64,000 bases of DNA from assembly GCA_037576195.1 (NCBI GenBank), contig CM075104.1:17686211-17750210 (forward strand), given 5' to 3'. Below are positions 4,619-26,900 of the stretch, piece by piece; the stretch's first letter is position 1, and each line of letters begins with the position of its first letter. Origin of the DNA: Phytoseiulus persimilis (taxonomy: Eukaryota; Arthropoda; Arachnida; Mesostigmata; Phytoseiidae). Both the position numbers and the translations under genes were made by a program. The notes below the pieces were generated by a model. It was given only the letters and a program-made list of their open reading frames with translations, did no database searches and was not told the origin of the DNA.

Positions 4619-4626
4619 CTTGCGTC
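4619..4626 (+). repeat. Left 8-bp target-site duplication of the hAT-like element
   Basis: CTTGCGTC lies immediately outside the left terminal inverted repeat and matches CTTGCGTA immediately outside the right end (17990-17997) at 7 of 8 positions. hAT transposons duplicate 8 bp on insertion, so position and length fit. The single mismatch is consistent with decay after insertion. Confidence 0.75.
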
Positions 4627-4637
4627 TAGGGGTCGCA
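4627..4637 (+). repeat. Left terminal inverted repeat of the hAT-like element
   Basis: TAGGGGTCGCA; its exact complement ends the element at 17979-17989. Starts of the form YAGGGG are usual for hAT termini. Beyond this core the ends share CCACGAGTCC with different spacing. Confidence 0.8.
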
Positions 4638-4661
4638 GACTCGGACTCGCGAGTCCGAGTC
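4638..4661. repeat. Perfect 24-bp subterminal palindrome (left end)
   Basis: This 24-bp segment is identical to its own reverse complement and is built from GACTCG / CGAGTC half-sites. It sits immediately inside the terminal repeat. The right end carries an analogous hairpin made of the same GGACTCG motif (17931-17969). Such motifs could be transposase-binding sites, as subterminal motifs are in other hAT elements; that role is inference. Confidence 0.8.
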
Positions 4662-4728
4662 CACGAGTCCAGGTGAGGGCGCAAAATCTCGGCTACGGAT
4701 TCGAGTCCCAAAATCTCTGATCCTGAGC

Positions 4729-4788
4729 TAGTACGTTCGAAAACGGAGGCTGACTTTCGATCGAGAATCACTGACTGGAGGGATGATT
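4729..4788 (+). repeat. Left inner inverted-repeat block
   Basis: Sixty positions align without gaps to the reverse complement of 17871-17930 with six mismatches. The block joins the terminal region to the tandem array; its 3' part (GAGGGATGATT) already resembles the GGAGGGGTGATT core of the 45-bp repeat. Confidence 0.85.
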
Positions 4789-4794
4789 TGGACC

Positions 4795-7190
4795 AGGGAT
4801 GACCGGGTCCAATCTGACCATACTTCTCAAAAGCTGGAGGGGTGATTCCGAGATCAATCTGACCATTACTTCCCAACTCTGGAGGGCTGAATCCGAGCCC
4901 AATCTGAGCATTACGTTCCAACTCTGGAGGGGTGATTCCGAGACCAATTTGGCCATTACTTTCCAACTCTGGAGGGGTGATTCTGGGACCAATTTGTCCA
5001 TTACTTTCCAACTCTGGAGGGGTGATTCCGAGACCAATCTGAGCATTACTTCCCAACTCTGGAGGGCTGAATCCGAGACCAATCTGAGCATTACTTCCCA
5101 ACTCTGGAGGGCTGAATCCGAGACCAATCTGAGCATTACGTTCCAACTTTGGAGGGGTGAATCCGAGACCAATCTGAGCATTACGTTCCAACTTTGGAGG
5201 GGTGATTCCGAGACCAATTTGGCCATTACTTTCCAACTCTGGAGGGGTGATTCTGGGACCAATTTGGCCATTACTTTCCAACTCTGGAGGGGTGATTCCG
5301 AGACCAATCTGAGCATTACTTCCCAACTCTGGAGGGCTGAATCCGAGCCCAATCTGAGCATTACGTTCCAACTTTGGAGGGGTGATTCCGAGATCAATTT
5401 GGCCATTACTTTCCAACTCTGGAGGGGTGATCCTTGGACCAATCTGAGCATTACTTCCCAACTCTGGAGGGGTGATTCTGGGACCAATCTGGCCATTACT
5501 TCCCAACTCTGGAGGGGTGATTCCGGGACCAATCTGAGCATTACTTCCCAACTCTGGAGGGCCGAATCCGAGACCAATCTGAGCATTCCGTTCCAACTTT
5601 GGAGGGGTGATTCCGAGACCAATTTTGCCATTACTTTCCAACTCTGGAGGGGTGATCCCGGGACCAATCTGAGCATTACTTCCCAACTCTGGAGGGGTGA
5701 TTCTGGGACCAATCTGGCCATTACTTCCCAACTCTGGAGGGGTGATTCCGAGACCAATCTGAGCATTACTTCCCAACTCTGGAGGGCTGAATCCGAGACC
5801 AATCTGAGCATTACGTTCCAACTTTGGAGGGGTGATTCCGAGACCAATTCGGCCATAACTTTCCAACTCTGGAGGGGTGATCCCGGGACCAACCTGAGCA
5901 TTACTTCCCAACTCTGGAGGGGTGATTCTGGGACCAATCTGGCCATTACTTCCCAAGTCTGGAGGGGTGATTCCGAGACCAATCTGAGCATTACTTCCCA
6001 ACTCTGGAGGGCTGAATCCGAGACCAATCTGAGCATTACGTTCCAACTTTGGAGGGGTGATTCCGAGACCAATTTGGCCATTACTTTCCAACTCTGGAGG
6101 GGTGATCCCGGGACCAATCTGAGCATTACTTCCCAACTCTGGAGGGGTGATTCTGGGACCAATCTGGCCATGACTTCCCAACTCTGGAGGGGTGATTCTG
6201 GGACCAATCTGGCCATTACTTCCCAACTCTGGAGGGGTGATTCCGAGACCAATCTGAGCATTACGTTCCAACTTTGGAGGGGTGATTCCGAGACCATATT
6301 GGCCATTACTTTCCAACTCTGGAGGGGTGATCCCGGGACCAATCTGAGCATTACTTCCCAACTCTGGAGGGGTGATTCCGAGACCAATCTGAGCATTACT
6401 TCCCAACTCTGGAGGGCTGAATCCGAGACCAATCTAAGCATTACGTTCCAACTTTGGAGGGGTGATTCCGAGACCAATTTGGCCATTACTTTCCAACTCT
6501 GGAGGGGTGATCCCGGGACCAATCTGAGCATTACTTCCCAACTCTGGAGGGCTGAATCCGAGACCAATCTGAGCATTACGTTCCAACTCTGGAGGGGTGA
6601 TTCCGAGACCAATTTGGCCATTACTTTCCAACTCTGGAGGGGTGATTCTGGGACCAATCTGGCCATTACTTCCCAACTCTGGAGGGGTGATTCTGGGACC
6701 AATCTGGCCATTACTTCCCAACTCTGGAGGGGTGATTCCGAGACCAATCTGAGCATTACTTCCCAACTCTGGAGGGCTGAATCCGAGACCAATCTGAGCA
6801 TTACGTTCCAACTTTGGAGGGGTGATTCCGAGACAAATTTGGCCATTACTTTCCAACTCTGGAGGGGTGATTCCGAGACAAATTGGCCATTACTTTCCAA
6901 CTCTGGAGGGGTGATCCCGGGACCAATCTGAGCATTACTTCCCAACTCTGGAGTGCTGAATCCGAGACCAATCTGAGCATTACGGTCCAACTCTGGAGGG
7001 GTGATTCCGAGACCAATTTGGCCATTACTTTCCAACTCTGGAGGGGTGATTCCGGGACCAATCTGGCCATTACTTCCCAACTCTGGAGGGGTGATTCCGA
7101 GACAAATCTGACCATACTTTTTCAACTCTGGAGGGGTGATTCCGAGACAAATCTGACCATTACTTTTACAAGACTGGAGGGGCATGATAT
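4795..7190 (-). repeat. 45-bp tandem repeat array, left arm (about 52 copies)
   Basis: Each unit is 45 bp and on the plus strand has the core CTGGAGGGGTGATTCCGAG, a variable GACCAAT, and CATTACTT(T/C)CCAACT. It is the reverse complement of the unit in the right arm. Subtypes are interspersed (GGGGTGATTCC, GGGCTGAATCC, GGGGTGATTCTGG), suggesting expansion by blocks of several units. Because 45 is divisible by three and few variants introduce stops, frames of up to 813 codons run through the array on both strands; these are consequences of the period and not good evidence of protein genes. Confidence 0.95.
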
Positions 7191-8025
7191 CGAGAGCATG
7201 GTTCCCCACTATCCTACTGAATTAATTTCTCAACAAGTAGTTATCGGAGAATCCATCAAACTCCACGGATTTTCATCACTTTTGAAATTTCCTCCATGTC
7301 TTGTCTCTTTCTTCGAAGTTATAGCATAGCAGTGTCGCGATAGAGAGCCCGAAGAACCACCAGGTTGTCGAGCGTTCTGGGGCTGAGGGGATTCCGAACT
7401 TTTGAGCAAATGTGATTCATGATGCTAAACTCACGCTCAGCCTTTACTGACGTTGGCTGAGCAGTCAGCAGTCGGTTGCAGCACGATTTGAGGATCATGC
7501 CATGTCGCTCGCCAGCTTCGAAACGTTTCATTTCCCGGAGTACTCTTCCGGAGATCGGCTCCGCCTCGTACGGAGTCCTTGGCGAACGCAACGGTGTACT
7601 GAATACATTCTGGAAATTCATGGCGAACGAAGGCGTTGCGCTAGGCAAGAGCGCTTCCTCTCTGATGCCGCCAGGAACATTGTCAACATGCGCGATGCCG
7701 TTGAGCAGGTTCCGAATCTCCGATTCGCTGAGCCGCTCGATGCCGAGCGAGTCTTCGGAAGACCAGTCATACCTGAGGTCCAGGAGATATTGTAGGACGC
7801 TCGAGTAGCCTGTCCTTCGTTTCAGTACTTCCAGGGCCACCGAATTGCGGAGAAGTATTGACAGACCCGAGTTAAGGTCGTGCAGGCATTGCAAGAGGGC
7901 GAGTATGATGCCAAATCAGCTCCGGGGTTCCGAGGCGGCTGCGGCCCGTATGCTAACATTTCCTGATTTCCTAGAGTCCCTGGGCTGGATTCTTGACAGA
8001 ATCATCCCCCCAGTTCAATCAAGGA
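7191..8025. other. Unique core of the hAT-like element
   Basis: This is the only long non-repetitive part of the element apart from its termini, a small island in the right arm and the nested retrotransposon. It lies between the two oppositely oriented arrays. It holds the transposase fragment on the minus strand (7319-7915). The roughly 100 bp on either side of that frame contains nothing else I can identify. Confidence 0.7.
7319..7915 (-). pseudogene. hAT transposase C-terminal fragment
   Basis: An open frame of about 199 codons ends at 7319 with no in-frame ATG near its 5' end, where a stop lies at about 7916-7918. The last 50 residues contain PTSVKAEREFSIMNHICSKV followed by RNPLSPRTLDNLVVLRALYR. 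The pattern of an invariant-looking SxxAERxFS, then a basic RNxLSPxTLxxLxxL segment, is the hAT C-terminal dimerisation motif that also completes the catalytic core. The DDE residues and N-terminal BED-type zinc finger expected in a 500-700 residue transposase are absent from the core. Either this is the last exon of a transposase whose 5' part was deleted, or a decayed remnant. It is antisense to the right arm and points toward the left end. Confidence 0.75.
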
Positions 8026-10190
8026 AAATCATGGCCAGATTGGTCTCGGAATCACCCCTCCAGAGTTGGGAAGTGGTGGTCAGATTGGTCTCGGAATCGC
8101 CCCTCCAGAGTTCGAAAGTGATAGTCAGATTGGTCCTAGAATCACCCCTCCAGAGTTCGAAAGTAATGGTCAGATTGGTCCCGAAATCACCCCTCCAGAG
8201 CTCAAAAGTAATGGTCAGATTGGTCCCGGAATCACCTCTCAAGAGTCCAAAAGTAATAGTCAGATTGGTCCCAGAATCACCCCTCCAGAGTTCAAAAGTA
8301 ATGGTCAGATTGGTCCCGGAATCACCCCTCCAGAGTTGGAAATTAATGGTCAGATTGGTCCCGGAATCAACCCTCCAGAGTTGTAAAGTAATGGTCAGAT
8401 TGGTCCCGGAATCACCCCTCAAGATTCCAAAAGTAATAGTCAGATTGGTCCCAGAATCACCCCTCCAGAGTTGGAAAGTAATGGTAAGATTGGTCCCGGG
8501 ATCAACCCTCCAGAGTTGGAAAGTAATGGTCAGATTGGTCCCGGAATCACCCCTCCAGAGTTTGAAAGTAATGGTCAGATTGGTCCCGGAATCACCCCTC
8601 TAGAGTTGGACAGTAATGGTCAGATTGGTCCCGGAATCACCCCTCCAGAGTTCGAAAGCCATGGTCAGATTGGTCCCGGAATCGCCCCTCCAGAGTTCAA
8701 AAGTAATGGTCAGATTGGTCCCGGAATCACCCCTCCAGAGTTTGAAAGTAATGGTCAGATTGGTCCCGGAATCACCCCTCCAGAGTTGGGAAGTGATGGT
8801 CAGATTGGTCCCGGAATCACCCCTCCAGAGTTCAAACGTGATGGTCAGATTGGTCCCGGAATCACCCCTACAGAGTTCAAAAGTAATGGTCAGATAGGTC
8901 CCGGAATCACCCCTCCAGAGTTGGAAAGTAATGGTCAGATTGGTCCCGGAATCACCCCTCCAGAGTTGTAAAGTAATGGTCAGATTGGTCCCGGAATCAC
9001 CCCTCCAGAGTTGGAAAGTAATGGTCAGATTGGTCCCGGAATCACCCCTCCAGATTTGGAAAGTAATGGTCAGATTGATCCCGGAATCACCCCTCCAGAG
9101 TTGGAAAGAAATGGTCAGATTGGTCCCGGAATCACCCCTCCAGAGTTGGAAAGTAATGGTCAGGTTGGTCCCGGAATCACCCCTCCAGAGTTGGAAAGTA
9201 ATGGTCAGATTGGTCCCGGAATCACCCCTCCAGAGTTGTAAAGTAATGGTCAGATAGGTCCCGGAATCACCCCTCCAGAGTTGGAAAGTAATGGTCAGAT
9301 TGGTCCCGGAATCACCCCTCCAGAGTTGTAAAGTAATGGTCAGATTGGTCCCGGAATCACCGCTCCAGAGTTGGAAAGTAATGGTCAGATTGGTCCCGGA
9401 ATCACCCCTCCAGATTTGGAAAGTAATGGCCAGATTGGTCCCGGAATCACCCCTCCAGAGTTGGAAAGTAATGGTCAGATTGGTCCCGGAATCACCCCTC
9501 CAGATTTGGAAAGTAATGGTCAGAGTGGTCCCGGAATCACCCCTCCAGAGTTGGAAAGTAATGGTCAGATTTGTCCCGGAATCACTCCTCCAGAGTTCAG
9601 AAGTGATGGTCAGATTGGTCCCGGAATCACCCCTACAGAGTTCGAAAGCAATGGTCAGATTGGTCCCGGAATCACCCCTCCAGATTTGGAAAGTAATGGT
9701 CAGAGTGGTCCCGGAATCACCCCTCCAGAGTTGGAAAGTAATGGTCAGATTTGTCCCGGAATCACCCCTCTAGAGTTGGACAGTAATGGTCAGATTGGTC
9801 CCGGAATCACCCCTCCAGAGTTCGAAAGCAATGGTCAGATTGGTCCCGGAATCGCCCCTCCAGAGTTCAAAAGTAGTGGACAGATTGGTCCCGGAATCAC
9901 CCCTCCAGAGTTGGAAAGTAATGGTCAGATTGGTCCCGGAATCACCCCTCCAGAGTTGGAAAGTAATGGTCAGATTTGTCCCGGAATCACCCCTCTAGAG
10001 TTGGACAGTAATGGTCAGATTGGTCCCGGAATCACCCCTCCAGAGTTCGAAAGCAATGGTCAGATTGGTCCCGGAATCGCCCCTCCAGAGTTCAAAAGTA
10101 ATGGTCAGATTGGTCCCGGAATCACCCCTCCAGAGTTCAAAAGTAATGGTCAGATTGGTCCCGGAATCACCCCTCCAGAGTTGGAAAGTA
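8026..10190 (+). repeat. 45-bp tandem repeat array, right arm, proximal segment (about 48 copies)
   Basis: The same 45-bp repeat as in 4795-7190 but inverted. On the plus strand the unit reads AGTTGGAAAGTAATGGTCAG followed by ATTGGTCCCGGAATCACCCC and TCCAG. Variants include GAGTTCAAAAG, GATTTGG and GAGTTGTAAAG; the last introduces stops in one frame. Consensus differs slightly from the left arm (GGTCCCGGAATC here, GGTCTCGGAATC there), so the arms have been homogenised separately. The array is cut at 10190 by the R1-like element and resumes at 14930. Confidence 0.95.
10177..10190 (+). repeat. 5' target-site duplication of the R1-like element
   Basis: AGAGTTGGAAAGTA, part of a 45-bp unit, immediately precedes the retrotransposon. 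The same 13-14 bp follow its poly(A) tail at 14929-14942 (the first A is shared with the tail). R1 elements in rDNA characteristically make 14-bp duplications. Because the target is itself repetitive, a deletion of about 31 bp of repeat is formally an alternative. Confidence 0.75.
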
Positions 10191-10202
10191 ACCCTGGAAG
10201 GA

Positions 10203-11651
10203 ATGGTACACCTTGCCGAGAAGAAATGGCCCAAGCAAACCTTCGAGAAGGTAACCAAAAGCAACGCTGGAATTGTCGGTAACCGCGGCTGCCGTGTACT
10301 CATCCACAGCGGCGATGATCAGGATCAGAGAACGACGAACATCATTGAGCAGCTGTCACGCTTCTTCCCCGCGGTCAAGGAAATCCACAGCCTCGAGGAC
10401 GGTGAGGTCGCTTCTACAACTGCACTGCTGTCGCCTGCGCTCCTAAGAGCAGGTGCCTCACAAGTCGCTAAAGAGAAGAGAACCCTCATCGTGGGAAAGA
10501 TCAAGAGCGCCGCTACACCGATAGACATCGCAGAAATACTTCAGAAAGTGGCAGAGCAGGTGAAAACGAGCTGTCATAAAATCGAAGAAAAGGTTCTGAT
10601 AAAGATACCGTGTAACTCCGACCACGAACTATATGGGAAACTCGCGGAGGCATGTTGGATCGTCAATGGCACTGAAGGTGGAGCAGAGCTCTCGCTCAAG
10701 TCACTCCGAGACCCTGCCAAAAGGTCAGCAGACAAGAGACAAACAGACGACAAGAAGACCTCGCGACGAAACGAAGGATCAATCCTCGTCGGAACAGGAG
10801 AGAAAAGCTTTGCCGATGTCCTCAGAAACCTTCGCAGCAATATCGACACGGAGACGTCCAGAGCTCTTGGAGTCGACGTCCGAGGGGTGCGCCAAACAGG
10901 AGAAGGTGTCAGGATCCAGATTCGGGAAAAGAAAAATGGAGGACAGGAGAGACTAGCCAAATACATCTCTGATGAGCTCAAACTGAGCGCGAAAACGCGG
11001 GGGCCCCAACTAAACTCCACCATCATTGTGTGTCGCATGGACATGGTCACTGACGAGTTGGAGATCGATAAAGAACTCAGAAACGCATTAGGAAGGCAGC
11101 AGGAAGGATACATTCGAGTGGAACAGATAAGAGAAACGAAATCAGGGGAAAGAACAGCCTTGGTCCGACTATCCAAATCCGACGCTGAAAGGATGCTTAA
11201 AATAGGAAAGATCAAGATCGGATGGCAACTCTGCAGCGTAAAAGAATGGTACGATGTTCCTATCTGCTACAGGTGTCAGGGAGTGGGCCACAAATCCAAC
11301 ACTTGCTCAGTAAAAGAAACAACAGAGAGGAAGTGCTACCGATGCGGAGGCAACGGCCACATCGGCAAGAATTGTAAATCAGCGGAAGCTTTCTGTACAA
11401 GCTGTGAAGCAAGCGGACATTCGGCATACTCATCACTGTGCCCGAAATATCGTCTGATCATCCAGACGATGCGAGACCGGTCGCGAAGCAGTGGACAGCG
11501 AACTGAGAATGTCGAGAACCGCGGACCAGCAATCGGAAAACCCACAGGAGCCGAGACGCATGAGAAGTTCATAGGAAACAGAACAAAGGAGTCTGAAGGA
11601 TGGATCACAATGCAGAACGGGAAGAGGGTCCCATCAGGAAACCTACAATAA
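10203..11651 (+). CDS. R1-like ORF1, gag-like nucleic-acid-binding protein
   Basis: The first ATG inside the element (10203) gives 482 residues, close to the usual 450-500 for R1 ORF1. The C-terminal third has three zinc knuckles in tandem: CYRCQGVGHKSNTC, CYRCGGNGHIGKNC, and a looser CTSCEASGHSAYSSLC. Proteins of this type coat the element RNA and form the ribonucleoprotein used for target-primed reverse transcription. The basic, lysine-rich middle (about 11.0-11.2 kb) fits RNA binding. The frame is also open upstream into the 45-bp array to about 10002, so a transcript starting in the array could append roughly 64 repeat-encoded residues. The TAA stop lies two bases before the ORF2 ATG (TAAACATG), suggesting termination-reinitiation. 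Confidence 0.85.
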   Translation: MVHLAEKKWPKQTFEKVTKSNAGIVGNRGCRVLIHSGDDQDQRTTNIIEQLSRFFPAVKEIHSLEDGEVASTTALLSPALLRAGASQVAKEKRTLIVGKIKSAATPIDIAEILQKVAEQVKTSCHKIEEKVLIKIPCNSDHELYGKLAEACWIVNGTEGGAELSLKSLRDPAKRSADKRQTDDKKTSRRNEGSILVGTGEKSFADVLRNLRSNIDTETSRALGVDVRGVRQTGEGVRIQIREKKNGGQERLAKYISDELKLSAKTRGPQLNSTIIVCRMDMVTDELEIDKELRNALGRQQEGYIRVEQIRETKSGERTALVRLSKSDAERMLKIGKIKIGWQLCSVKEWYDVPICYRCQGVGHKSNTCSVKETTERKCYRCGGNGHIGKNCKSAEAFCTSCEASGHSAYSSLCPKYRLIIQTMRDRSRSSGQRTENVENRGPAIGKPTGAETHEKFIGNRTKESEGWITMQNGKRVPSGNLQ

Positions 11652-11653
11652 AC

Positions 11654-14600
11654 ATGAAGATAGTACAGATCAACCTCAACCGATCTAGAGCAGCACACGC
11701 TCTCCTGGAAGACAGAGTCAACAAGGAAGATATCAGCGTATGTACACTGAGCGAAGTTAATAGAAAAATATCTAACAGAAAATTCGGAAGAGACCAAGGA
11801 TGGATTTCTGAAGAATCAGGGGATACTGCCATATGGATCACCCGTAACTGTAAGGAAAGTATCAAGGAACGGAAGATAGCTGGAGGTATCACCGAGGTGG
11901 CCCTCGCCGAGAGCAACACACGCCTCCTCAGCTGTTATTTCTCACCGAACCGGAATACAGAAGAATTTATTGAATACATCGAAGCACTAGAAAACGTCGT
12001 TGAAGGAACGAGCGGACAGGTTATCCTCGCGGGAGACTTCAATGCGGCATCAACGGCCTGGGGAAGTGCTCGCAACACAGCCAGGGGCAATGCCCTGGAG
12101 GAGCTACTGGCAAGACACGGATTGTATATACTCAATGACAGCAAGACCCCCACATTCCGAAGAGGTACACAGGAGACCTTCATCGACATCACTGCAGCAC
12201 GAATCCCGTCTGGGATCTCAGGATGGACGGTCAATGATGAATTCGAGTCGCTCAGCGACCATCTGTATGTGGAGATGGAAGCTGTAGGAGAAGAACAACA
12301 AATACCAGAAAGACAGACCGGCTGGATTGCAAGACGACTCGACCAGGAGATCCTCGCGCAAAGCATAGATGAGGAATGCAAGAGACTTAAAGATCTCAAT
12401 ATGAATGTAAATGAACATGTTATTCTGAAGATCCTACGCAATGCCTGTCAGGCAGCATCCTCGAGAACATCACCCCAGCTTGGCCGAAAAAGGCCAGCGT
12501 ACTGGTGGACGCGAGAAGTCGCGGAGCAGAGAAAAACTTGCCTCTCAGCACGAAGAAACTACGTGCGATCGAGAAGAACAATACACATGAATCCCGAAGC
12601 AACGCAGCAGTCCTTGACAAGATACTCGCTGGAAAAAAAGAAGTACATGAAGACTATCTTGGACGCAAAACGCGCGAGCTGGAGGGATCTCCTTGAGAAT
12701 CTCAGACAGGATGTGTGGGGTCTTCCATACAAGATCATCCGAGATAAGGTTGGCCGACACAGGCGACAATTATCCTCCGAAACAATTGACAAGGCAGTCT
12801 CGGACCTCTTCCCAGAGGGCACCGATTTCGAGAGAGAAAACTTATCCATCAATGAAGAAGATATCCCCGAGGTAACCAATAAAGAAGTTATAGACGCTGC
12901 CGATCGAATCGCGCTCCGCAAAACACCAGGACCCGATGGCATCCCAGCAGAAGCTCTCAAGATACTCATGAAGAGATGGCCATCCATCTTCGGAAAAGCC
13001 GCAAACGCGATCATACAGAGTGGAATCTTCCCACCCCAATGGCGAACTGCAAGGCTCGTACTGATCCCGAAACCTGGGAAACCGAACTCCTACAGACCCA
13101 TATGCCTGCTGGACACAACCGCCAAGGCAGTGGAGAGCATCATAAACAGGAGACTACAAGCTGAGCTTGAAGAGGACGGGCGTCTCTCCGAAAACCAGTT
13201 TGGCTTTCGAAGAGGAAGATCCACCCTGTCTGCCCTGGAAAGGGTTACACAAATAGTTGATGCCGAGAAGCAGCGCTCACGGAAGCTGAGAGACCGTGTC
13301 CTCATCACCCTTCTGGATGTCAGGAATGCCTTCAATTCGGTGGAGTGGGAGGTAGTCCTGAAAAGTCTGCAGAAGAGGCAGATCTCCCCTTACCTCCGGA
13401 GAATACTGAGCTGCTACCTACAAAATAGATGGATCGTCGACGAGAAAGGTCGAACCCATCGAATGTCAGCGGGAGTTCCGCAGGGTTCGGTGTTAGGACC
13501 GACCTTGTGGAATGTGGCTTATGACGACGTTTTGAGAGAGGTACTCCCAAGGGGAGCTGTGACTATCGCATACGCTGACGACCTTGCAATCATAACGAAG
13601 GCAAGATCAATTGAGGAACTGGAAGAAATCACACAGGACTCACTTGACATAATCTCACGGTGGATGAAAGCGAATCACCTCGCCCTTGCGCCTGAGAAAA
13701 CGGAGGCCGTGATGCTGATCAAACGCAAAAAGGACCGCCTCCCAAGAGTGGTAGTGGAAGGACATAGAGTAGAAGTGGCCAGATCCGCGAAATACTTGGG
13801 AGTTCTATTACAGTCAGACCTGAAGGGGACTGAACACATCAAGATGGTCGTCAATAAGGCCACGAAAGCGGCAACCGACATAGCGACGATTTTACCGCGC
13901 ACCTATGGAGCATCTGAGGACCAAAGGAGGATTTTGGCCACAGTGGCCCAATCCATCGCACTGTATGCCGCCCCTATTTGGAGTCCATCTGCGCTGCGAT
14001 ACAAAAAGAACAGAGACGCTCTGGAACGAGCGCAAAGAATCACCGCGATAAGGATCACTAGAGCCTATCGCACGGTATCCACTTCAGCGTTGCTTGTGCT
14101 GGCCCGCGCGATCCCCTGGCCCTTCCTAGCGCAGGAGAGAGTGGAGACCTACAGGCGCGACAAGATCCGAGATGGGGACGATGAGTCCGGAAGTGACGAG
14201 GAGGCCCACAAAAAGGATGAAGAGATACGCGAAGAGACGCTCAACAAGTGGCAACAATCTTGGAGCAGCTCGCTGACCGGCAGAACGACCTACGATAGCA
14301 TATCGGATCTGCGAAGCTGGTACAAGCGGGAATTCGGTGAACTAACGTACCACACAACCCAAGTCCTCACAGGACACGGAGATTTCCAGAAGTACCTCCA
14401 TCGCTTCAAGAAAGCTCCTAGCCCACTGTGCATCATTTGCGATTCAGGGGCAGAAGACGATGTGGATCATACGGTCTTCACTTGCGAAGCGCTGTCTCAG
14501 CCAAGACGAGGCTTAGAAGGAGGCTCGGTCCCAGAACTGGTCCAAAAGATGCTGCAAAATGAAGGTAAGTGGAATTTAATCTCACGCAAAATAGGATGTA

Positions 14601-14677
14601 TACTCAAAAAAAAGGAGAACATGCTCATGCGAAGAAACGCAGAACTAAACGGGCAAACTATGCCTGAGGTTCCGTAG
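11654..14677 (+). CDS. R1-like ORF2, endonuclease and reverse transcriptase polyprotein
   Basis: From the ATG at 11654 the product has 1007 residues; the open frame extends back to an ATG at 11600, overlapping ORF1 by 52 bp, but MKIVQINLNRSRAAH is the typical start of an R1-type endonuclease. The endonuclease domain (about 11.65-12.3 kb) contains GDFNAASTAWGS and, later, SLSDH, the catalytic Asp-Asn and Ser-Asp-His motifs. The reverse transcriptase (about 12.9-13.9 kb) shows NSYRPICLLDTTAKAVE, NQFGFRRGRST, GVPQGSVLGPTLWN and the catalytic AYADDLAI (YADD at 13571-13582). A C-terminal CCHC (CIIC, then His and Cys, 14429-14485) is typical of R1 and related clades. No lesion is visible, so the protein is predicted to be functional. 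It nicks target DNA and primes cDNA synthesis on the element RNA. Confidence 0.9.
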   Translation: MKIVQINLNRSRAAHALLEDRVNKEDISVCTLSEVNRKISNRKFGRDQGWISEESGDTAIWITRNCKESIKERKIAGGITEVALAESNTRLLSCYFSPNRNTEEFIEYIEALENVVEGTSGQVILAGDFNAASTAWGSARNTARGNALEELLARHGLYILNDSKTPTFRRGTQETFIDITAARIPSGISGWTVNDEFESLSDHLYVEMEAVGEEQQIPERQTGWIARRLDQEILAQSIDEECKRLKDLNMNVNEHVILKILRNACQAASSRTSPQLGRKRPAYWWTREVAEQRKTCLSARRNYVRSRRTIHMNPEATQQSLTRYSLEKKKYMKTILDAKRASWRDLLENLRQDVWGLPYKIIRDKVGRHRRQLSSETIDKAVSDLFPEGTDFERENLSINEEDIPEVTNKEVIDAADRIALRKTPGPDGIPAEALKILMKRWPSIFGKAANAIIQSGIFPPQWRTARLVLIPKPGKPNSYRPICLLDTTAKAVESIINRRLQAELEEDGRLSENQFGFRRGRSTLSALERVTQIVDAEKQRSRKLRDRVLITLLDVRNAFNSVEWEVVLKSLQKRQISPYLRRILSCYLQNRWIVDEKGRTHRMSAGVPQGSVLGPTLWNVAYDDVLREVLPRGAVTIAYADDLAIITKARSIEELEEITQDSLDIISRWMKANHLALAPEKTEAVMLIKRKKDRLPRVVVEGHRVEVARSAKYLGVLLQSDLKGTEHIKMVVNKATKAATDIATILPRTYGASEDQRRILATVAQSIALYAAPIWSPSALRYKKNRDALERAQRITAIRITRAYRTVSTSALLVLARAIPWPFLAQERVETYRRDKIRDGDDESGSDEEAHKKDEEIREETLNKWQQSWSSSLTGRTTYDSISDLRSWYKREFGELTYHTTQVLTGHGDFQKYLHRFKKAPSPLCIICDSGAEDDVDHTVFTCEALSQPRRGLEGGSVPELVQKMLQNEGKWNLISRKIGCILKKKENMLMRRNAELNGQTMPEVP

Positions 14678-14929
14678 GGAACCCTAGCCGCAAGACAGAA
14701 CGGAGAATAGATAAACAAAAAAGGGAGACGAGAGCTGACTGACGAAGCGGACGGCCCTTGGTGACCCGGAAGTAATACAATACAGGGCTTGCCCTGAGTG
14801 CCCAGTCACCAAAAGGGCGGAGGGAGGGGTTTTAGAGGACACACCTCATAACTAGGGTAACGGACGAAAGTCCTATCACTTGTATCCGAAGGGATTTCCC
14901 CTCCCGCCAGAAAAAAAAAAAAAAAAAAA
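14678..14929 (+). other. 3' UTR and poly(A) tail of the R1-like element
   Basis: About 233 bp of non-coding sequence follows ORF2, ending in a pure run of 19 A residues (14911-14929). No AATAAA hexamer is evident close to the tail. In R1-type elements the 3' UTR is recognised by the reverse transcriptase; that role here is by family analogy. Confidence 0.8.
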
Positions 14930-14942
14930 GAGTTGGAAAGTA
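14929..14942 (+). repeat. 3' target-site duplication of the R1-like element
   Basis: AGAGTTGGAAAGTA, identical to 10177-10190. The array resumes in register after it (ATGGTCAGATTGG). Confidence 0.75.
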
Positions 14943-17388
14943 ATGGTCAGATTGGTCCCGGAATCACCCCTCCAGAGTTGGAAAGTGATGGTCAGATTGG
15001 TCCCGGAATCACCCCTCCAGAGTTCAAAAGTAATGGTCAGATAGGTCCCGGAATCACCCCTCCAGAGTTGGAAAGTAATGGTCAGATAGGTCCCGGAATC
15101 ACCCCTCCAGAGTTGGAAAGTAATGGTCAGATTGGTCCCGGAATCACCCCTCCAGAGTTGGAAAGTAATGGTCAGATTGGTCCCGGAATCACCCCTCCAG
15201 ATTTGGAAAGTAATGGTCAGAGTGGTCCCGGAATCACCCCTCCAGAGTTGGAAAGTAATGGTCAGATTTGTCCCGGAATCACTCCTCCAGAGTTCAAAAG
15301 TGATGGTCAGATTGGTCCCGGAATCACCCCTACAGAGTTCAGAAGTAATGGTCAGATTGGTCCCGGAATCATGCCTCCAGAGTTGGAAAGTAATGGTCAG
15401 ATCGGTCCCGGAATCACCCCTCCAGAGTTGGAAAGTAATGGTCAGATTGGTCCCGGAATCGCCCCTCCAGAGTTCAAAAGTAATGGTCACGAATGATCCC
15501 GGAATCACCCCTACAGAGTTCAGAAGTAATGGTCAGATTGGTCCCGGAATCATGCCTCCAGAGTTGTAAAGTAATGGTCAGATTGGTCCCGGAATCACCC
15601 CTCCAGATTTGGAAAGTAATGGTCAGAGTGGTCCCGGAATCACCCCTCCAGAGTTGGAAAGTAATGGTCAGATTGGTCCCGGAATCACCCCTCCAGAGTT
15701 GTAAAGTAATGGTCAGATTGGTCCCGGAATCACCCCTCCAGAGTTGGAAAGTAATGGTCAGATTGGTCCCGGAATCACCCCTCCAGATTTGGAAAGTAAT
15801 GGTCAGATTGGTCCCGGAATCACCCCTCTAGAGTTGGAAAGTAATGGTCAGATTGGTCCCGGAATCACCCCTCCAGATTTGGAAAGTAATGGTCAGAGTG
15901 GTCCCGGAATCACCCCTCCAGAGTTGGAAAGTAATGGTCAGATTTGTCCCGGAATCACTCCTCCAGAGTTCAAAAGTGATGGTCAGATTGGTCCCGGAAT
16001 CACCCCTACAGAGTTCAGAAGCAATGGTCAGATCGGTCCCGGAATCATGCCTCCAGAGTTGTAAAGTAATGGTCAGATTGGTCCCGGAATCACCCTTACA
16101 GAGTTGTAAAGTAATGGTCGGATTGGTCCCGGAATCGCCCCTCCAGAGTTCAAAACTGATGGCCAGATAGGTCCCGGAATCACCCCTCCAGAGTTGGAAA
16201 GTAATGGTCAGATTGGTCCCGGAATCATCCCTCCAGAGTTGGAAAGTAATGGTCAGATTGGTCCCGGAATCACCCTTACAGAGTTGTAAAGTAATGGTCG
16301 GATTGGTCCCGGAATAGCCCCTCCAGAGTTCAAAACTGATGGTCAGATAGGTCCCGGAATCACCCCTCCAGAGTTGGAAAGTAATGGTCAGATTGGTCCC
16401 GGAATCGCCCCTCCAGAGTTCAAAAGTAATGGTCACGAATGGTCCCGGGATCACCCCTACAGAGTTCAGAAGTAATGGTCAGATAGGTCCCGGAATCACC
16501 CCTCCAGAGTTCAAAAGTAATGGTCAGATTGGTCCCGGAATCATCCCTCCAGAGTTGGAAAGTAATGGTCAGATTGGTCCCGGAATCACCCTTACAGAGT
16601 TGTAAAGTAATGGTCGGATTGGTCCCGGAATCGCCCCTCCAGAGTTCAGAACTGATGGTCAGATAGGTCCCGGAATCACCCCTCCAGAGTTGGAAAGTAA
16701 TGGTCAGATTGGTCCCGGAATCGCCCCTCCAGAGTTCAAAAGTAATGGTCACGAATGGTCCCGGGATCACCCCTACAGAGTTCAGAAGTAATGGTCAGAT
16801 TGGTCCCGGAATCATGCCTCCAGAGTTGTAAAGTAATGGTCAGATTGGTCCCGGAATCACCCCTCCAGATTTGGAAAGTAATGGTCAGAGTGGTCCCGGA
16901 ATCACCCCTCCAGAGTTGGAAAGTAATGGTCAGATTTGTCCCGGAATCGCTCCTCCAGAGTTCAAAAGTGATGGTCAGATTGGTCCCGGAATCACCCCTA
17001 CAGAGTTCAGAAGTAATGGTCAGATTGGTCCCGGAATCATGCCTCCAGAGTTGTAAAGTAATGGTCAGATTGGTCCCGGAATCGCCCCTACAGAGTTGTA
17101 AAGTAATGGTCGGATTGGTCCCGGAATCGCCCCTCCAGAGTTCAAAACTGATGGTCAGATAGGTCCCGGAATCACCCCTCCAGAGTTGGAAAGTAATGGT
17201 CAGATTGGTCCCAGAATCACCCCTCCAGAGTTGGAAAGTAATGGTCAGATTGGTCCCGGGATCACCCCTCCAGAGTTGGAAAGTAATGGTCAGATTGGTC
17301 CCAGAATCACCCCTCCAGAGTTGGAAAGTAATGGTCAGATTGGTCCCGGAATCGCCCCTCCAGAGTTCAAAAGTAATGGTCACGAATG
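14930..17388 (+). repeat. 45-bp tandem repeat array, right arm, distal segment (about 54 copies)
   Basis: Continuation of the 8026-10190 array beyond the nested retrotransposon, same orientation and consensus. A unit variant containing GGTCACGAAT, one base longer than normal, recurs at 15485, 16431, 16747 and 17379, spacings of 946, 316 and 632, that is about 3, 1 and 2 times a seven-unit (about 316 bp) higher-order repeat. Other marker variants (ATCATGCCTCC, CCCTTACAGAGTTGTAAAG) recur with the same grouping. Confidence 0.93.
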
Positions 17389-17684
17389 GTCGGAGCCTGG
17401 ACGACCTGAGCGATTCTCGGTGAGGATATGTTTTAACGAAAACTGAAATCGTGTGAATGTTCCCCGCAACCAGATGAAGCAAGTCGCTCAGCGATTCCGC
17501 TGCGATTGATCTATAATAAATACCCATCTTTTCCCTCCAGCTGTTGAGGGGTGATTCCGAGACCAATCTGGCCATGCTGCAGTCGTTGAGCGTTCGCCGA
17601 TGTGAGACTGACGAGAACGGACAGGAAGACCTATGCGTGTCGCTCCGTGTCCCGTCAGTGCTCCGGCGTGCGAGGTCAGGTTGG
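17389..17684. other. Non-array island in the right arm, with one inverted repeat unit
   Basis: About 300 bp of unique sequence interrupts the array. Within it, 17541-17574 (GAGGGGTGATTCCGAGACCA, then ATCTGGCCATGC) is a single 45-bp-type unit in the opposite orientation and with the left-arm consensus. No TSD or terminal repeats are obvious, so this may be a rearrangement between arms and not an insertion. Confidence 0.7.
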
Positions 17685-17870
17685 TCCCGGAATCACCCCT
17701 CCAGAGTTGGAAAGTAATGGTCAGATTGGTCCCGGAATCGCCCCTCCAGAGTTCAAAAGTAATGGTCAGGTTGGTCCCGGAATCGCCCCTCCAGAGTTCA
17801 AAAGTAATGGTCAGATTGGTCCCGGAATCACCCCTCCAGAGTTGGCGAAGTATGGTCAGACTGGTCCCGG
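17685..17870 (+). repeat. Last units of the right-arm 45-bp array
   Basis: About four units that run into the inner inverted-repeat block at 17871. The outermost unit (GAGTTGGCGAAGTATGGTCAG) mirrors the outermost left-arm unit (CTGACCATACTTCTCAAAAG), so the array starts at the same relative place in both arms. Confidence 0.9.
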
Positions 17871-17930
17871 AATCATCCCTCTAGTCAGTGATTCTCAAAC
17901 GAAAGTCAGCCTCCGTTCCCGATCGTACTA
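17871..17930 (-). repeat. Right inner inverted-repeat block
   Basis: Reverse complement matches 4729-4788 at 54 of 60 positions with no gaps. Confidence 0.85.
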
Positions 17931-17969
17931 GAGTCCGACGAGTCCAAGAGATGAGGACTCGTCGGACTC
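17931..17969. repeat. Subterminal hairpin (right end)
   Basis: Perfect 15-bp arms, GAGTCCGACGAGTCC at 17931-17945 and its complement at 17955-17969, around a 9-base loop. Each arm contains the GAGTCC motif twice. This is the counterpart of the palindrome at 4638-4661. Confidence 0.85.
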
Positions 17970-17978
17970 GTGGATTTT

Positions 17979-17989
17979 TGCGACCCCTA
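17979..17989 (-). repeat. Right terminal inverted repeat of the hAT-like element
   Basis: TGCGACCCCTA, exact complement of the left terminus at 4627-4637. Confidence 0.8.
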
Positions 17990-17997
17990 CTTGCGTA
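17990..17997 (+). repeat. Right 8-bp target-site duplication of the hAT-like element
   Basis: CTTGCGTA, matching the left flank CTTGCGTC at 7 of 8 positions. Confidence 0.75.
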
Positions 17998-23900: not shown

Positions 23901-26900
23901 GACTTCTGCGTGGTATAGCTGCGTTTCATCTTTCGATTTTTGGCGTCCTGCTCGATTTCCTTGCCGGGCTCAACGAATCAGTGAGCTAAGTCAGCTCAAG
24001 AGCAGACCTTGATGAATCTCGTTGAATTACGTCCGACAGTGCGTGACCGTGATACGTGCCCTCATTATGGGACGAAATCAATAGGTGTCAGTACCGAAAT
24101 ATGATTTCGCTGCATCGATCGAAGCTGAGTTTCGGTTTGGGTCCCACTCGAAAGGGGACATTAAAACGTATAAAAGTCGTTAGTGCGGTAGTGCCGCATC
24201 ATGAGTCTTTAAACCGTTATGGCAACGGCCTTGACACCGAGCCGGTGACAACGGTGACGCCGCCATCGCTGTCTTCTTCGTGGTAATATGCAACGAAGAA
24301 CACTGCTCCCTCCGCAGCTCGAACGTTTGTTCCGCGGTCAGTAGGCATTGCATAAATGCAATCAAAAATTTCGAAAAATGACCTCACATCCAAGAAAAAA
24401 GACGGTTATACGGCGTGTTTACGTCTTGGATGTTACGGATTATCTGAGCGATCCGCTGAGAACCCCGCCGAATGGCATGGGAACGCGCGTCCTTCAAGAA
24501 GGTTCCTTCGTGTCGCATGCCCCCACTTTTCTTCCCCTCTATACTCTTGAGGTCACGTTACGTTCTTCGGGATCCATCCTGTTCCGTGCCGCAATAGCTC
24601 CCAAGTGATCATTTGAAGCCGTCGACAGCTGATTTCGCGCCGCGCGGATGAAGAAACATCCGACAAAAAAACACAGAATTCTCCTGGACTCATCGTGCGG
24701 TCATCAAATACGGGCAATGGACACAGAAATCTTCCTACGTCACACAGACATTTGACTCTTCGGGAGCAGAACGGCACAGCGAACGATGACGGTGATCGGC
24801 TTTCTGGAAGAGCTGCTCCTACCGAGAAATTCATTGTGCTCGCTGAGGGTTTCTATGAATGCTCCGGCGATGTAGCCGACATAGAAGTCCGAATGCAACT
24901 CCAGGGATTCGTGTCCGACCAGAGAATTGCCGCAAGACGGGCCTCGCTTGCATCTTTTGAAATCGGGGCGAATGCGACTATTTTCTGCGTGAGTGATCGA
25001 CGATAACACTGCAGGCGTGGTTGTATCTTTCGGTTCTGCTCTGAGCTTGTCTTCAAAGTTCGGATTAAGTTGATTGTTTGCCTTGGTAACGACGTCGGTA
25101 GTCGTCCTGGCGGTCGTCGTTGACGTCTCGATCGATGGCCGAGACTTCATCGGTCGAATGCGAAATTCAGTCGTTAGGAAGAGCTTAGCGACTATTCCCA
25201 GCTCTCCGTTAGAGGGAGAGAGCGTTGGGAACATTTGTTCCAAGTGGTGCCGATCAAGGCTGGCTTCTGGTCAGTGCACACGTGGCACAGGGGCTGTGCA
25301 TTCATGCTGTCCTTGTACTAGGAACATCGGTGTCCACCGGTCTCCGACGGAACTAGACTATAACGAGATTCCCTCGCGGCAGCGGAGTAAGTTAGTCGTT
25401 TTCGCTCGACTCAGTCCGATGGCTATCCCCTGCCACGGGCTATTGAAGCAGAGTCGGTTGATTCCGCCGCCATTGATCCTGGGAATATTCGTGGGGGGAA
25501 AACCTCTTAGGAAGAGGAGGATAACTGACGTCAACCTGATGGGGGCCGTTTCCGAGAGCACAGGTTCGAACTCCGGCTTCCCTAGGAAGTGGGCGTCCCA
25601 TCAAACAATGTCACTATGTTGCACAACGTTCTTGAGCGTATGACGCAAGTGGCGCTGAAAGTCGTTGCTCTTACGTCACGACAAGGAGAGAAATATTTCT
25701 GGCGATCTTGATCCTTCCAGAACAGCGGACTGATCCTTACGCTTTGATCTCAAGTTATGATAATGATGATGATGATTCCTACGATCATCAGAGCGACGAC
25801 GACAGCAACAACAACGGCAGCGACGGTAATTATGGCTGCCTCGCTCAGGCCTAGTCGGTCGGGACCTAGCGGGGGTGATCCGGTTTCATTGTCTGCCACG
25901 CTTTTGTTCGATCACGCCGGGAAGCATGAATTGAGCGGACCCTTAAGAGACCTTCACCCGCATAAACATTTCGGCTGATCGGCTCTTGAATATTTTTGGG
26001 AACGGAGCTTCTGGGATAATTTATTTTACGTAAGCCGTTGTTGATGTGCCCTGGAAATTCCTAGATTTAGCAGGGCTCGCGGTGACGGCTTGCTATTCCC
26101 TTGAATTTCAGTGAGCATTCGCGTATCTGTGATCTGAGCGCTCCGTGATATCCGAGTTGAACGAGAATTTGTAGCTCACTGGAATGAAAGCGATGATTTC
26201 GATTCGCGGGGATGCGCAGTCAAATCGAAGCGGAACCCACTTGGGCATGAGTGAACTTGAGCGCTGTCACCTTTCGGCACAACTCCTGAGAGCTGCGCAC
26301 GGATTTTCAGCTCGATTGCCCAATTTCCCCTGGATCGGAAGAAGGCATCAGAGCAGCCGGTCAAAGGCCTCAGAAAATGAAGTTGAGGTACTGGAATGAT
26401 CGCAGAACTGCTAACGACTCCAGGATAGACGAAGGCGGCGATGATTGGACCTGCGAAGAGAAGGAATGAGCGGAGAGATACAGAGAATGATAAGATGCCG
26501 CGTTGCGCCATTTATCTGGGCCGGATACGGCTGCGAGGATCGTTCGACCTTGCGCTGTCCGTCCGCGAATGTGAAGTTTTTCCGGCGCGGTTCCTCTTGA
26601 TCGCAGCGGAGGCTCACGGAACCCACTGTCACAGTGGGATAGAGCCAAGTCGGAACAGCAGAAAGAGATGAAACAAGCGAAACGAGGTGAAAGCAAGAGC
26701 GGCGACGACATTAACAGAAGTCAACAGAAATTAATCTCGTTTTCGCGTTTAGTTGTCGAAGACGTGCTGATGAAGCGACGCACAACGTCTGGTACTGGAT
26801 GTTGTGTTCTCCTTCCGCGAACAGGTTTGCAAACACATTCTGTGCCCCACTGGCATTGCGGATTCCCAACGCGCCAGAACATTCATTGGGTTCGAACCGT

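Follow-up and report, generated by a model that had tools for sequence, protein, structure and literature searches.

A fold-back-like hAT transposon whose inverted arms are built of a genome-wide 45-bp satellite in Phytoseiulus persimilis

We analysed a 64,000-bp stretch of the Phytoseiulus persimilis genome (assembly GCA_037576195.1, contig CM075104.1, positions 17,686,211 to 17,750,210; hereafter the window). A preliminary description, made from the sequence alone, had placed in it a 13.4-kb hAT-like element with inverted arms of tandem repeats. The locus is one real transposon of the hAT type, with the following features (coordinates within the window; all arrays have a period of 45 bp).

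4619..4626, unstranded: left copy of the 8-bp target duplication, CTTGCGTC (flank comparison)
4627..4637, plus: G-type end, 11-bp terminus TAGGGGTCGCA (terminus comparison)
4638..4727, plus: G-type subterminal region, containing GACTCG/CGAGTC palindromes (read by eye)
4728..4787, plus: inner inverted block, matching its partner at 54/60 (alignment)
4809..7182, plus: left arm, 45-bp satellite array of 52.8 units (array analysis)
7322..7909, minus: exon 2 remnant of the transposase gene (196 residues), 92% identical to sister copy E1 (comparison with sister copies)
8023..10191, minus: right arm, first part, 48.2 units (array analysis)
10192..14929, plus: nested non-LTR retrotransposon, a later insertion outside the hAT element proper (ORFs, poly-A, target duplication)
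about 14930..17391, minus: right arm, second part, 54.6 units (array analysis)
17392..17673, unstranded: 282-bp stretch breaking up the right arm (sequence comparison)
17674..17881, minus: right arm, outer part, 4.6 units (array analysis)
17872..17931, minus: inner inverted block, partner of 4728-4787 (alignment)
17979..17989, minus: A-type end, 11-bp terminus (terminus comparison)
17990..17997, unstranded: right copy of the target duplication, CTTGCGTA (flank comparison)

The structural features first reported for this element hold up. The 11-bp terminus and its inverted copy occur nowhere else in the window, the inner blocks are identical at 54 of 60 aligned positions (counted by hand), the left arm runs in one orientation and the three right-arm arrays in the other, and the 8-bp flanks match at 7 of 8 positions. 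The two ends, here and in the other copies of this lineage (lineage 1), are unequal, one A-type and one G-type. The 13.4-kb span is bordered by termini on both sides, but it includes the nested retrotransposon; without this insertion and one copy of its 14-bp duplication, the element itself measures 8,611 bp. The 4.74-kb retrotransposon in the right arm carries a CCHC ORF, an endonuclease-reverse transcriptase ORF (11600-14677) and a poly-A tract, and its target duplication, GAGTTGGAAAGTAA, lies at 10178-10191 and 14930-14943. Apart from one satellite-like piece, the 282-bp stretch matched nothing in the sequences compared. Two further candidates were rejected: a sequence near 7950 in the core that resembles the terminus with 2 mismatches and is found again in another copy's core, and a coding array in the left arm, where long open frames run in three frames. 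The latter are not evidence of coding, because in any one frame a unit of 15 codons is free of stops in about half of cases.

The only unique core (7183-8022) had been read as bearing the trace of a transposase. This stands in that its minus-strand frame is 92% identical to exon 2 of sister copies elsewhere in the genome, although a Pfam search with the 196-residue fragment alone gave no family at E 0.001. The gene lacks exon 1 and the beginning of exon 2; with only a 3' gene fragment kept, the window copy is non-autonomous. Copies with a transposase do exist: sister copies have an open two-exon gene with a BED finger (29.9 bits; Pfam cut-off 20.6) and a hAT dimerisation region (24.2 bits; cut-off 21.4). 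Pfam returned nothing for the part of these proteins where the RNase H-like catalytic core would lie, and a protein search with exon 1 returned one distant match (E 3.8e-6). By these domains, the sister copies are predicted to encode a hAT-type transposase.

hAT transposons move by cut-and-paste and leave 8-bp target duplications; Hermes has short terminal repeats and is not known to have satellite arms. As far as the Hermes source covers them, Hermes and other hAT elements resemble the window family in their BED finger, hAT dimerisation region and unequal ends (PMC10368747). The exact terminus was found at 136 + 155 = 291 places in the genome, against 26 + 30 = 56 for the reversed control, and the subterminal block at 58 against 0. 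Termini recur as inverted pairs in sister copies that share the layout of the window element, including arrays and 8-bp duplications; the preliminary description thus withstands its own refutation test on the termini. Among 22 terminus pairs read at both ends, the duplication is perfect in 19, 7/8 in two (the window copy and L065) and 4/8 in one (L069); shifted controls reached 7/8 or better in 0 of 528 cases. An element at C4:2983.7-2984.3 kb, whose left terminus was not recognised, was left out of this count, and a second left-end candidate for E9, 13 bp further out, was dropped for its 2 mismatches. When the joined flanks of the 22 pairs were compared with other loci, four gave matches spanning the junction: clean paralogous empty sites for E5, E9 and L072, and one that was not clean for E2. 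The joined flanks of the window copy match only themselves in this genome.

The 45-bp unit is a genome-wide satellite, with 52,556 core matches that make up about 1.3% of the genome. A second hAT lineage has arms of the same unit; its transposase is 43-48% identical to that of the first and, in L050, likewise contains both the BED finger and the hAT dimerisation region by Pfam. In addition, the unit fills the interior of a third carrier, which appears not to be a hAT and is represented by 414 5' ends and 450 3' ends. In the first 12 of these 450 places, all 12 adjoin an array and 10 keep a palindromic 3' terminus. With tandem repeats at its centre and a 3' end rich in palindromes, this carrier resembles HINE and Helentron-associated elements as the sources portray them; the subterminal inverted repeats of HINE were not found in it, the longest exact inverted match between one example of each end module being 8 bp (PMC7492417, PMC4067079). 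The window element itself is a hAT, not a HINE. Set against 175 G-ends of lineage 1 and 38 A-ends of lineage 2, the end counts of the third carrier lead us to estimate that most 45-bp units in the genome lie outside hAT elements.

Monomers from the carriers are closely alike. With the E4 arms excluded from the pools, the consensus is identical between the two hAT lineages (45/45) and matches the third carrier at 44/45; mean pairwise identity is the same between pools (88.2-89.6%) as within them (88.5-90.9%). For coding DNA, the two lineages give only short alignments (53-137 bp, 69-81%). The phase in which the arrays are joined differs between the lineages, and within each it is nearly constant (20/21 lineage-1 and 10/12 lineage-2 ends read). 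The preliminary description had seen here a fold-back-like hAT that grew satellite arms of its own. A hAT element with inverted arms of tandem 45-bp units is borne out by recurring termini, 8-bp duplications, a hAT-type transposase and three clean empty sites; private growth of the arms in this lineage is not supported, as the unit, with the same consensus, also occurs in the second lineage and the third carrier.

Arms and cores also vary between copies. In the window copy, the 5' side of the gene remnant faces the A-type end, and the core is therefore flipped relative to the ends. Flipped cores were found in 6 of 17 scorable copies, a count that left out five gene-bearing loci without an end in the sequence. 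In E5, a 5,206-bp arm-core-arm block, 95.8% identical to E1, is inverted relative to the ends. Near-identical copies differ in arm length (E1 has 17 and 30 units, E2 25 and 16), and the E4 arms have diverged much further, at 72-82% to most others. Flipped cores are the pattern that recombination between arms would cause; exchange between copies, swapping the ends, could instead be responsible. Neither for the window copy nor for E5 did matching individual monomers show where the inversion broke.

We interpret the window element as a hAT-family transposon, fold-back-like and non-autonomous, whose arms are a separately joined satellite kept alike by exchange, and put the probability of this reading at roughly 0.75. 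The DNA between the A-type and G-type ends, with an inverted array of the satellite between each end and the gene, is inserted with 8-bp target duplications, by the cut-and-paste usual for hAT. The arms would probably not be an element of transposase specificity; each lineage would have joined the satellite separately, and copying in gap repair and unequal exchange with one genomic pool would have kept the arrays alike. Recombination between inverted arms may flip the cores. In the window copy, the 5' part of the gene is gone, the core is flipped and a retrotransposon has entered the right arm. More tentatively, the satellite might be a recombination adaptor that unrelated transposons have in common. 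Arm homology would let carriers exchange arms and flip cores while keeping lineage-specific ends, and several transposition systems would therefore disperse the satellite at once, as a hitch-hiker that evolves in a pool of its own.

Our search of titles and abstract openings, with subscription literature mostly outside it, found no description of hAT arms made of satellite arrays. Related architectures occur elsewhere. According to the part of its report available to us, Tetris is a foldback transposon of Drosophila virilis with 220-bp units, provisionally assigned to Mutator from its 8-10-bp duplications, for which no transposase-encoding copy was found (PMC4079207). Compared by description only, Tetris shares with the window element long inverted terminal arms with a variable number of tandem repeats, which form satellite-like arrays elsewhere too; it differs in unit length (220 against 45 bp), and here sister copies bear a hAT transposase and the unit is common to a second lineage and another carrier (PMC4079207). 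Galileo and Drosophila Foldback, as the accessible text describes them, likewise contain tandem repeats within their long terminal inverted repeats, Galileo being of the P superfamily (PMC3688188).

Tetris offers a precedent for fold-back repeats becoming a satellite (PMC4079207, in the portion seen), and the 45-bp satellite could in the same way have begun as a hAT sub-repeat, from which the third carrier and the free arrays acquired it. The fixed places and inverted orientation of the arrays in both hAT lineages fit such an origin; the greater number of third-carrier ends speaks against it, and we consider it less likely than the reading above.

Considerably less probable is that the arrays are ancestral arms, each unit bound by the BED finger and conserved by selection in both lineages. 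Galileo's tandem repeats are reported, in the text available, to hold transposase-binding sites (PMC3688188), a role we would not prefer here; most columns of the 45-bp unit are 90-100% conserved, and AGGGGT, by eye a weak resemblance, occurs in both unit and terminus. Yet the unit is equally conserved in the third carrier, whose ends are unrelated, and it is the subterminal palindromes, unlike the unit, that vary with transposase lineage. L065, L072 and L073 have good duplications but few or no units, perhaps through later deletions; L072, at 60 bp, is single-copy and thus possibly an in-place deletion product, so it does not prove the arms dispensable.

That the arms are third-carrier insertions nested in hAT elements is very improbable. 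The carrier is numerous and has arrays of the same unit, but, save for one partial match in E8, 21 hAT elements contain neither its 5' nor its 3' module, and this and the near-constant phase of the block-array junctions already contradict nesting for nearly all copies. The imperfect duplication and gene remnant of the window copy might suggest a mere satellite array between two unrelated terminus-like sequences, an idea with next to no credit left, already contradicted by sister copies with the same layout, perfect duplications and clean empty sites.

A hAT transposon with satellite arms, sharing its satellite with another kind of mobile element, is a concrete case of a satellite spread by and between transposons. 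Fold-back arms of tandem repeats were known from other superfamilies or, in Tetris, from an element whose placement is provisional because a transposase-bearing copy is lacking. Here, sister copies of a hAT element have open transposase exons, and the role of such arms is therefore directly testable. One satellite in two hAT lineages and a third carrier provides a natural test of how satellites move and stay uniform, and the occurrence of cores in either orientation may preserve visible traces of recombination within transposons.

The window element is a single transposon of the hAT type. The features assigned to it in the preliminary description, namely inverted 11-bp termini, a 54/60 inner block, opposed 45-bp arrays and flanks matching at 7/8 positions, were all seen again, and a non-LTR retrotransposon overlooked there lies nested within it. 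The surrounding assembly comprises 181 Mb in 127 contigs. This insertion and two sister copies of the same lineage (lineage 1) are as follows:

10192-14929 in the window: nested non-LTR retrotransposon that carries a CCHC ORF, another ORF (endonuclease-reverse transcriptase, 1,025 aa, uninterrupted) and poly-A
C4:11738750-11744296: sister copy E1, 5,547 bp
C3:15255399-15260699: sister copy E2, 5,301 bp

The retrotransposon is flanked by a perfect 14-bp target duplication of array sequence; without it and one copy of this duplication, the window copy measures 8,611 bp. The core retains 196 residues of transposase exon 2 (92% identical), and the copy is non-autonomous. Outside it, at 1958-2482, open frames overlap on both strands, the plus-strand frame resembling a reverse-transcriptase fragment by eye. 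The transposase gene that the preliminary description proposed to seek in other copies is present in E1 and E2 (98.3% identity across 4,576 bp) as two open exons, 423 and 279 codons long from stop to stop. A GT-AG intron lies between them; the intronless relatives L049 and L050 match the reading obtained when the exons are joined. A BED finger in exon 1 and the hAT dimerisation region in exon 2 each exceeded the Pfam cut-off; no Pfam family matched the catalytic core.

As would be expected from the earlier proposal that its ends recur elsewhere, the exact 11-bp terminus occurs at 136+155 places in the genome, versus 26+30 for the reversed control. With up to 3 mismatches, the subterminal block has 58 places and the lineage-1 G-end, one of two end types described below, has 175, each versus 0 in the control. 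Lineage-1 G-ends cluster in G000 at C3:23712301-24000829, where three are spaced 7,996 and 7,995 bp apart, which suggests a tandemly duplicated locus holding one element. We assembled 22 terminus pairs with both ends read, part from similarity-found loci (up to 2 mismatches allowed per terminus) and the rest from the matches listed, among which some close pairs were left out; the latter were chosen for closeness or for a gene or array between them, never by flanks. Flanking 8-bp duplications matched at 8/8 positions in 19 pairs, 7/8 in two (the window copy and L065) and 4/8 in one (L069), whereas none of 528 shifted controls reached at least 7/8. In a hand count of the 21 duplications other than that of L069, position 2 was T in 19 and position 7 was A in 17, in agreement with the nTnnnnAn target preference of hAT elements. 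When the joined flanks of all 22 pairs were compared with retrieved loci of this genome, four gave spanning empty-site matches, clean for E5 (three loci shown), E9 and L072 and not clean for E2; for the window copy, a genome search with joined flanks matched its own flanks only. The target of E5 is a dispersed repeat, perhaps a SINE, that is also present in L084 near position 1700 and has a tRNA-like stretch (GGGTTCGATCCC); empty copies of this repeat are the source of the E5 empty sites. Two elements with perfect 8-bp target duplications consist of little beyond two ends: the 60-bp, single-copy L072 (C1:46542707-46542766) and the 86-bp L073 (C1:49963827-49963912).

The ends are unequal. In 20 of 21 elements from both hAT lineages, typed by eye, one end is A-type (AA or a near match after the terminus) and the other G-type (GA or a near match); one end of E9 was not typable, and none had two alike. 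Such inequality is also described for Hermes (PMC10368747). Outside both lineages, L069 (C2:5062299-5063417) has two AA ends, possibly a third type: it carries the 11-bp terminus twice and subterminal repeats of AACCGGTTC type, and lacks both an array and a matching duplication. Nine gene-bearing elements had both ends read (in E4 the left one was typed by eye): seven have the 5' side of the gene towards the G-end, and two, the window copy and E5, have it towards the A-end. Copies with one end read divide into four standard and four flipped, some of which nesting or decay could make misleading; five gene-bearing loci with no end in the sequence retrieved fall outside this score. In E5, a 5,206-bp arm-core-arm block 95.8% identical to E1 is inverted relative to the ends. 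Recombination between the inverted arms is the simplest cause of flipped cores, and exchange between copies could also produce them; monomer matching located no inversion breakpoints.

A second hAT lineage (F1, F2, F4, L066, L067 and L068) shares the 11-bp terminus and has 8/8 duplications, with CCCGGGTA-type subterminal palindromes versus GACTCG/CGAGTC in lineage 1. Its genes, where present (F4 has only a decayed one), are 43% identical to lineage 1 in exon 1 and 46-48% in exon 2, and the coding DNA aligns in pieces of just 53-137 bp at 69-81%. Its arms are likewise inverted, inward-oriented 45-bp arrays, one side being very short in L068. At L050 (C1:12104719-12108309, with L094 and L095), an open 690-codon lineage-2 transposase frame is adjoined by a decayed end and just two to three decayed satellite units. 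Next to the right end of F2, L046 (C2:723269-724051) holds an open frame resembling a Copia-type integrase by eye.

The monomer core (at most 2 mismatches) occurs at 26,039 + 26,517 = 52,556 places versus 0 in the control, which at 45 bp per unit makes up roughly 1.3% of the genome (2.4 Mb). By our estimate, hAT elements hold a minority of these units: counting one end type per lineage, there are about 213 ends in lineages 1 and 2, which at some tens of units per element falls far short of 52,556. L075, L076 and L054 carry arrays in a single orientation and no recognised terminus. A 3' module common to L075 and L054 has 450 places; in the first 12, it directly follows a 45-bp array in all 12 and keeps a sharp 3' terminus with palindromes in 10. 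The 5' module of this third, apparently non-hAT carrier has 414 places. Among the exact matches listed on C1 (40 and 52 places), modules within 10 kb formed 23 same-strand and two opposite-strand pairs, with some places entering two pairs. Its 3' palindromes and central repeats resemble those of Helentron-associated elements; subterminal inverted repeats, reported for that group (PMC4067079), were not found in its end modules, and we therefore do not assign it there. At L088 and L089 (C1:8588500-8592250), third-carrier elements lie head to head where other copies have their TATATA-rich 5' ends, a hint of target preference.

We compared monomers in pools of 181 units (E1, E2, E3, E5), 175 (F1, F2, L066, L067) and 354 (seven third-carrier loci). 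The consensus is identical between the hAT lineages (45/45) and matches the third carrier at 44/45, the single difference being 51:47 polymorphic in that carrier; compared in pairs, units from different pools are about as similar (88.2-89.6%) as units of one pool (88.5-90.9%). The 161 units of the window copy give a consensus that departs from that of lineage 1 at three positions. Greater divergence is seen in the L076 array (71% identity among its own units) and in the E4 arms, which were excluded from the lineage-1 pool. The earlier view that the lineage grew its own satellite arms is not supported, since the second hAT lineage and the third carrier share the unit.

Fold-back arms of tandem repeats that double as satellite have their nearest precedent in Tetris, provisionally a Mutator element, for which no transposase copy is reported (PMC4079207); here the element is a hAT whose sister copies carry the gene. 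In oyster, Helentron-type elements are reported to carry satellite-like arrays (PMC7492417). The literature searched yielded no hAT family with satellite arms and no satellite that hAT lineages share with a different type of element.

Nested third-carrier insertions do not simply account for the arms: the modules of that carrier are absent from the 21 hAT elements, bar one partial match in E8. E1 and E2, though nearly identical, have arms of unlike length, 17 and 30 units in the former and 25 and 16 in the latter. Array start phase is identical in 20 of 21 lineage-1 ends read, the exception being the right end of E9, which lacks an array, and 10 of 12 lineage-2 ends, L068 excepted, share one other phase; the arms are thus fixed in each lineage but joined at different points. 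Their monomers are nevertheless alike despite far-diverged genes. We infer that these arms are best explained by separate acquisition, in which each hAT lineage would have gained them independently and one pool would later have homogenised the monomers.
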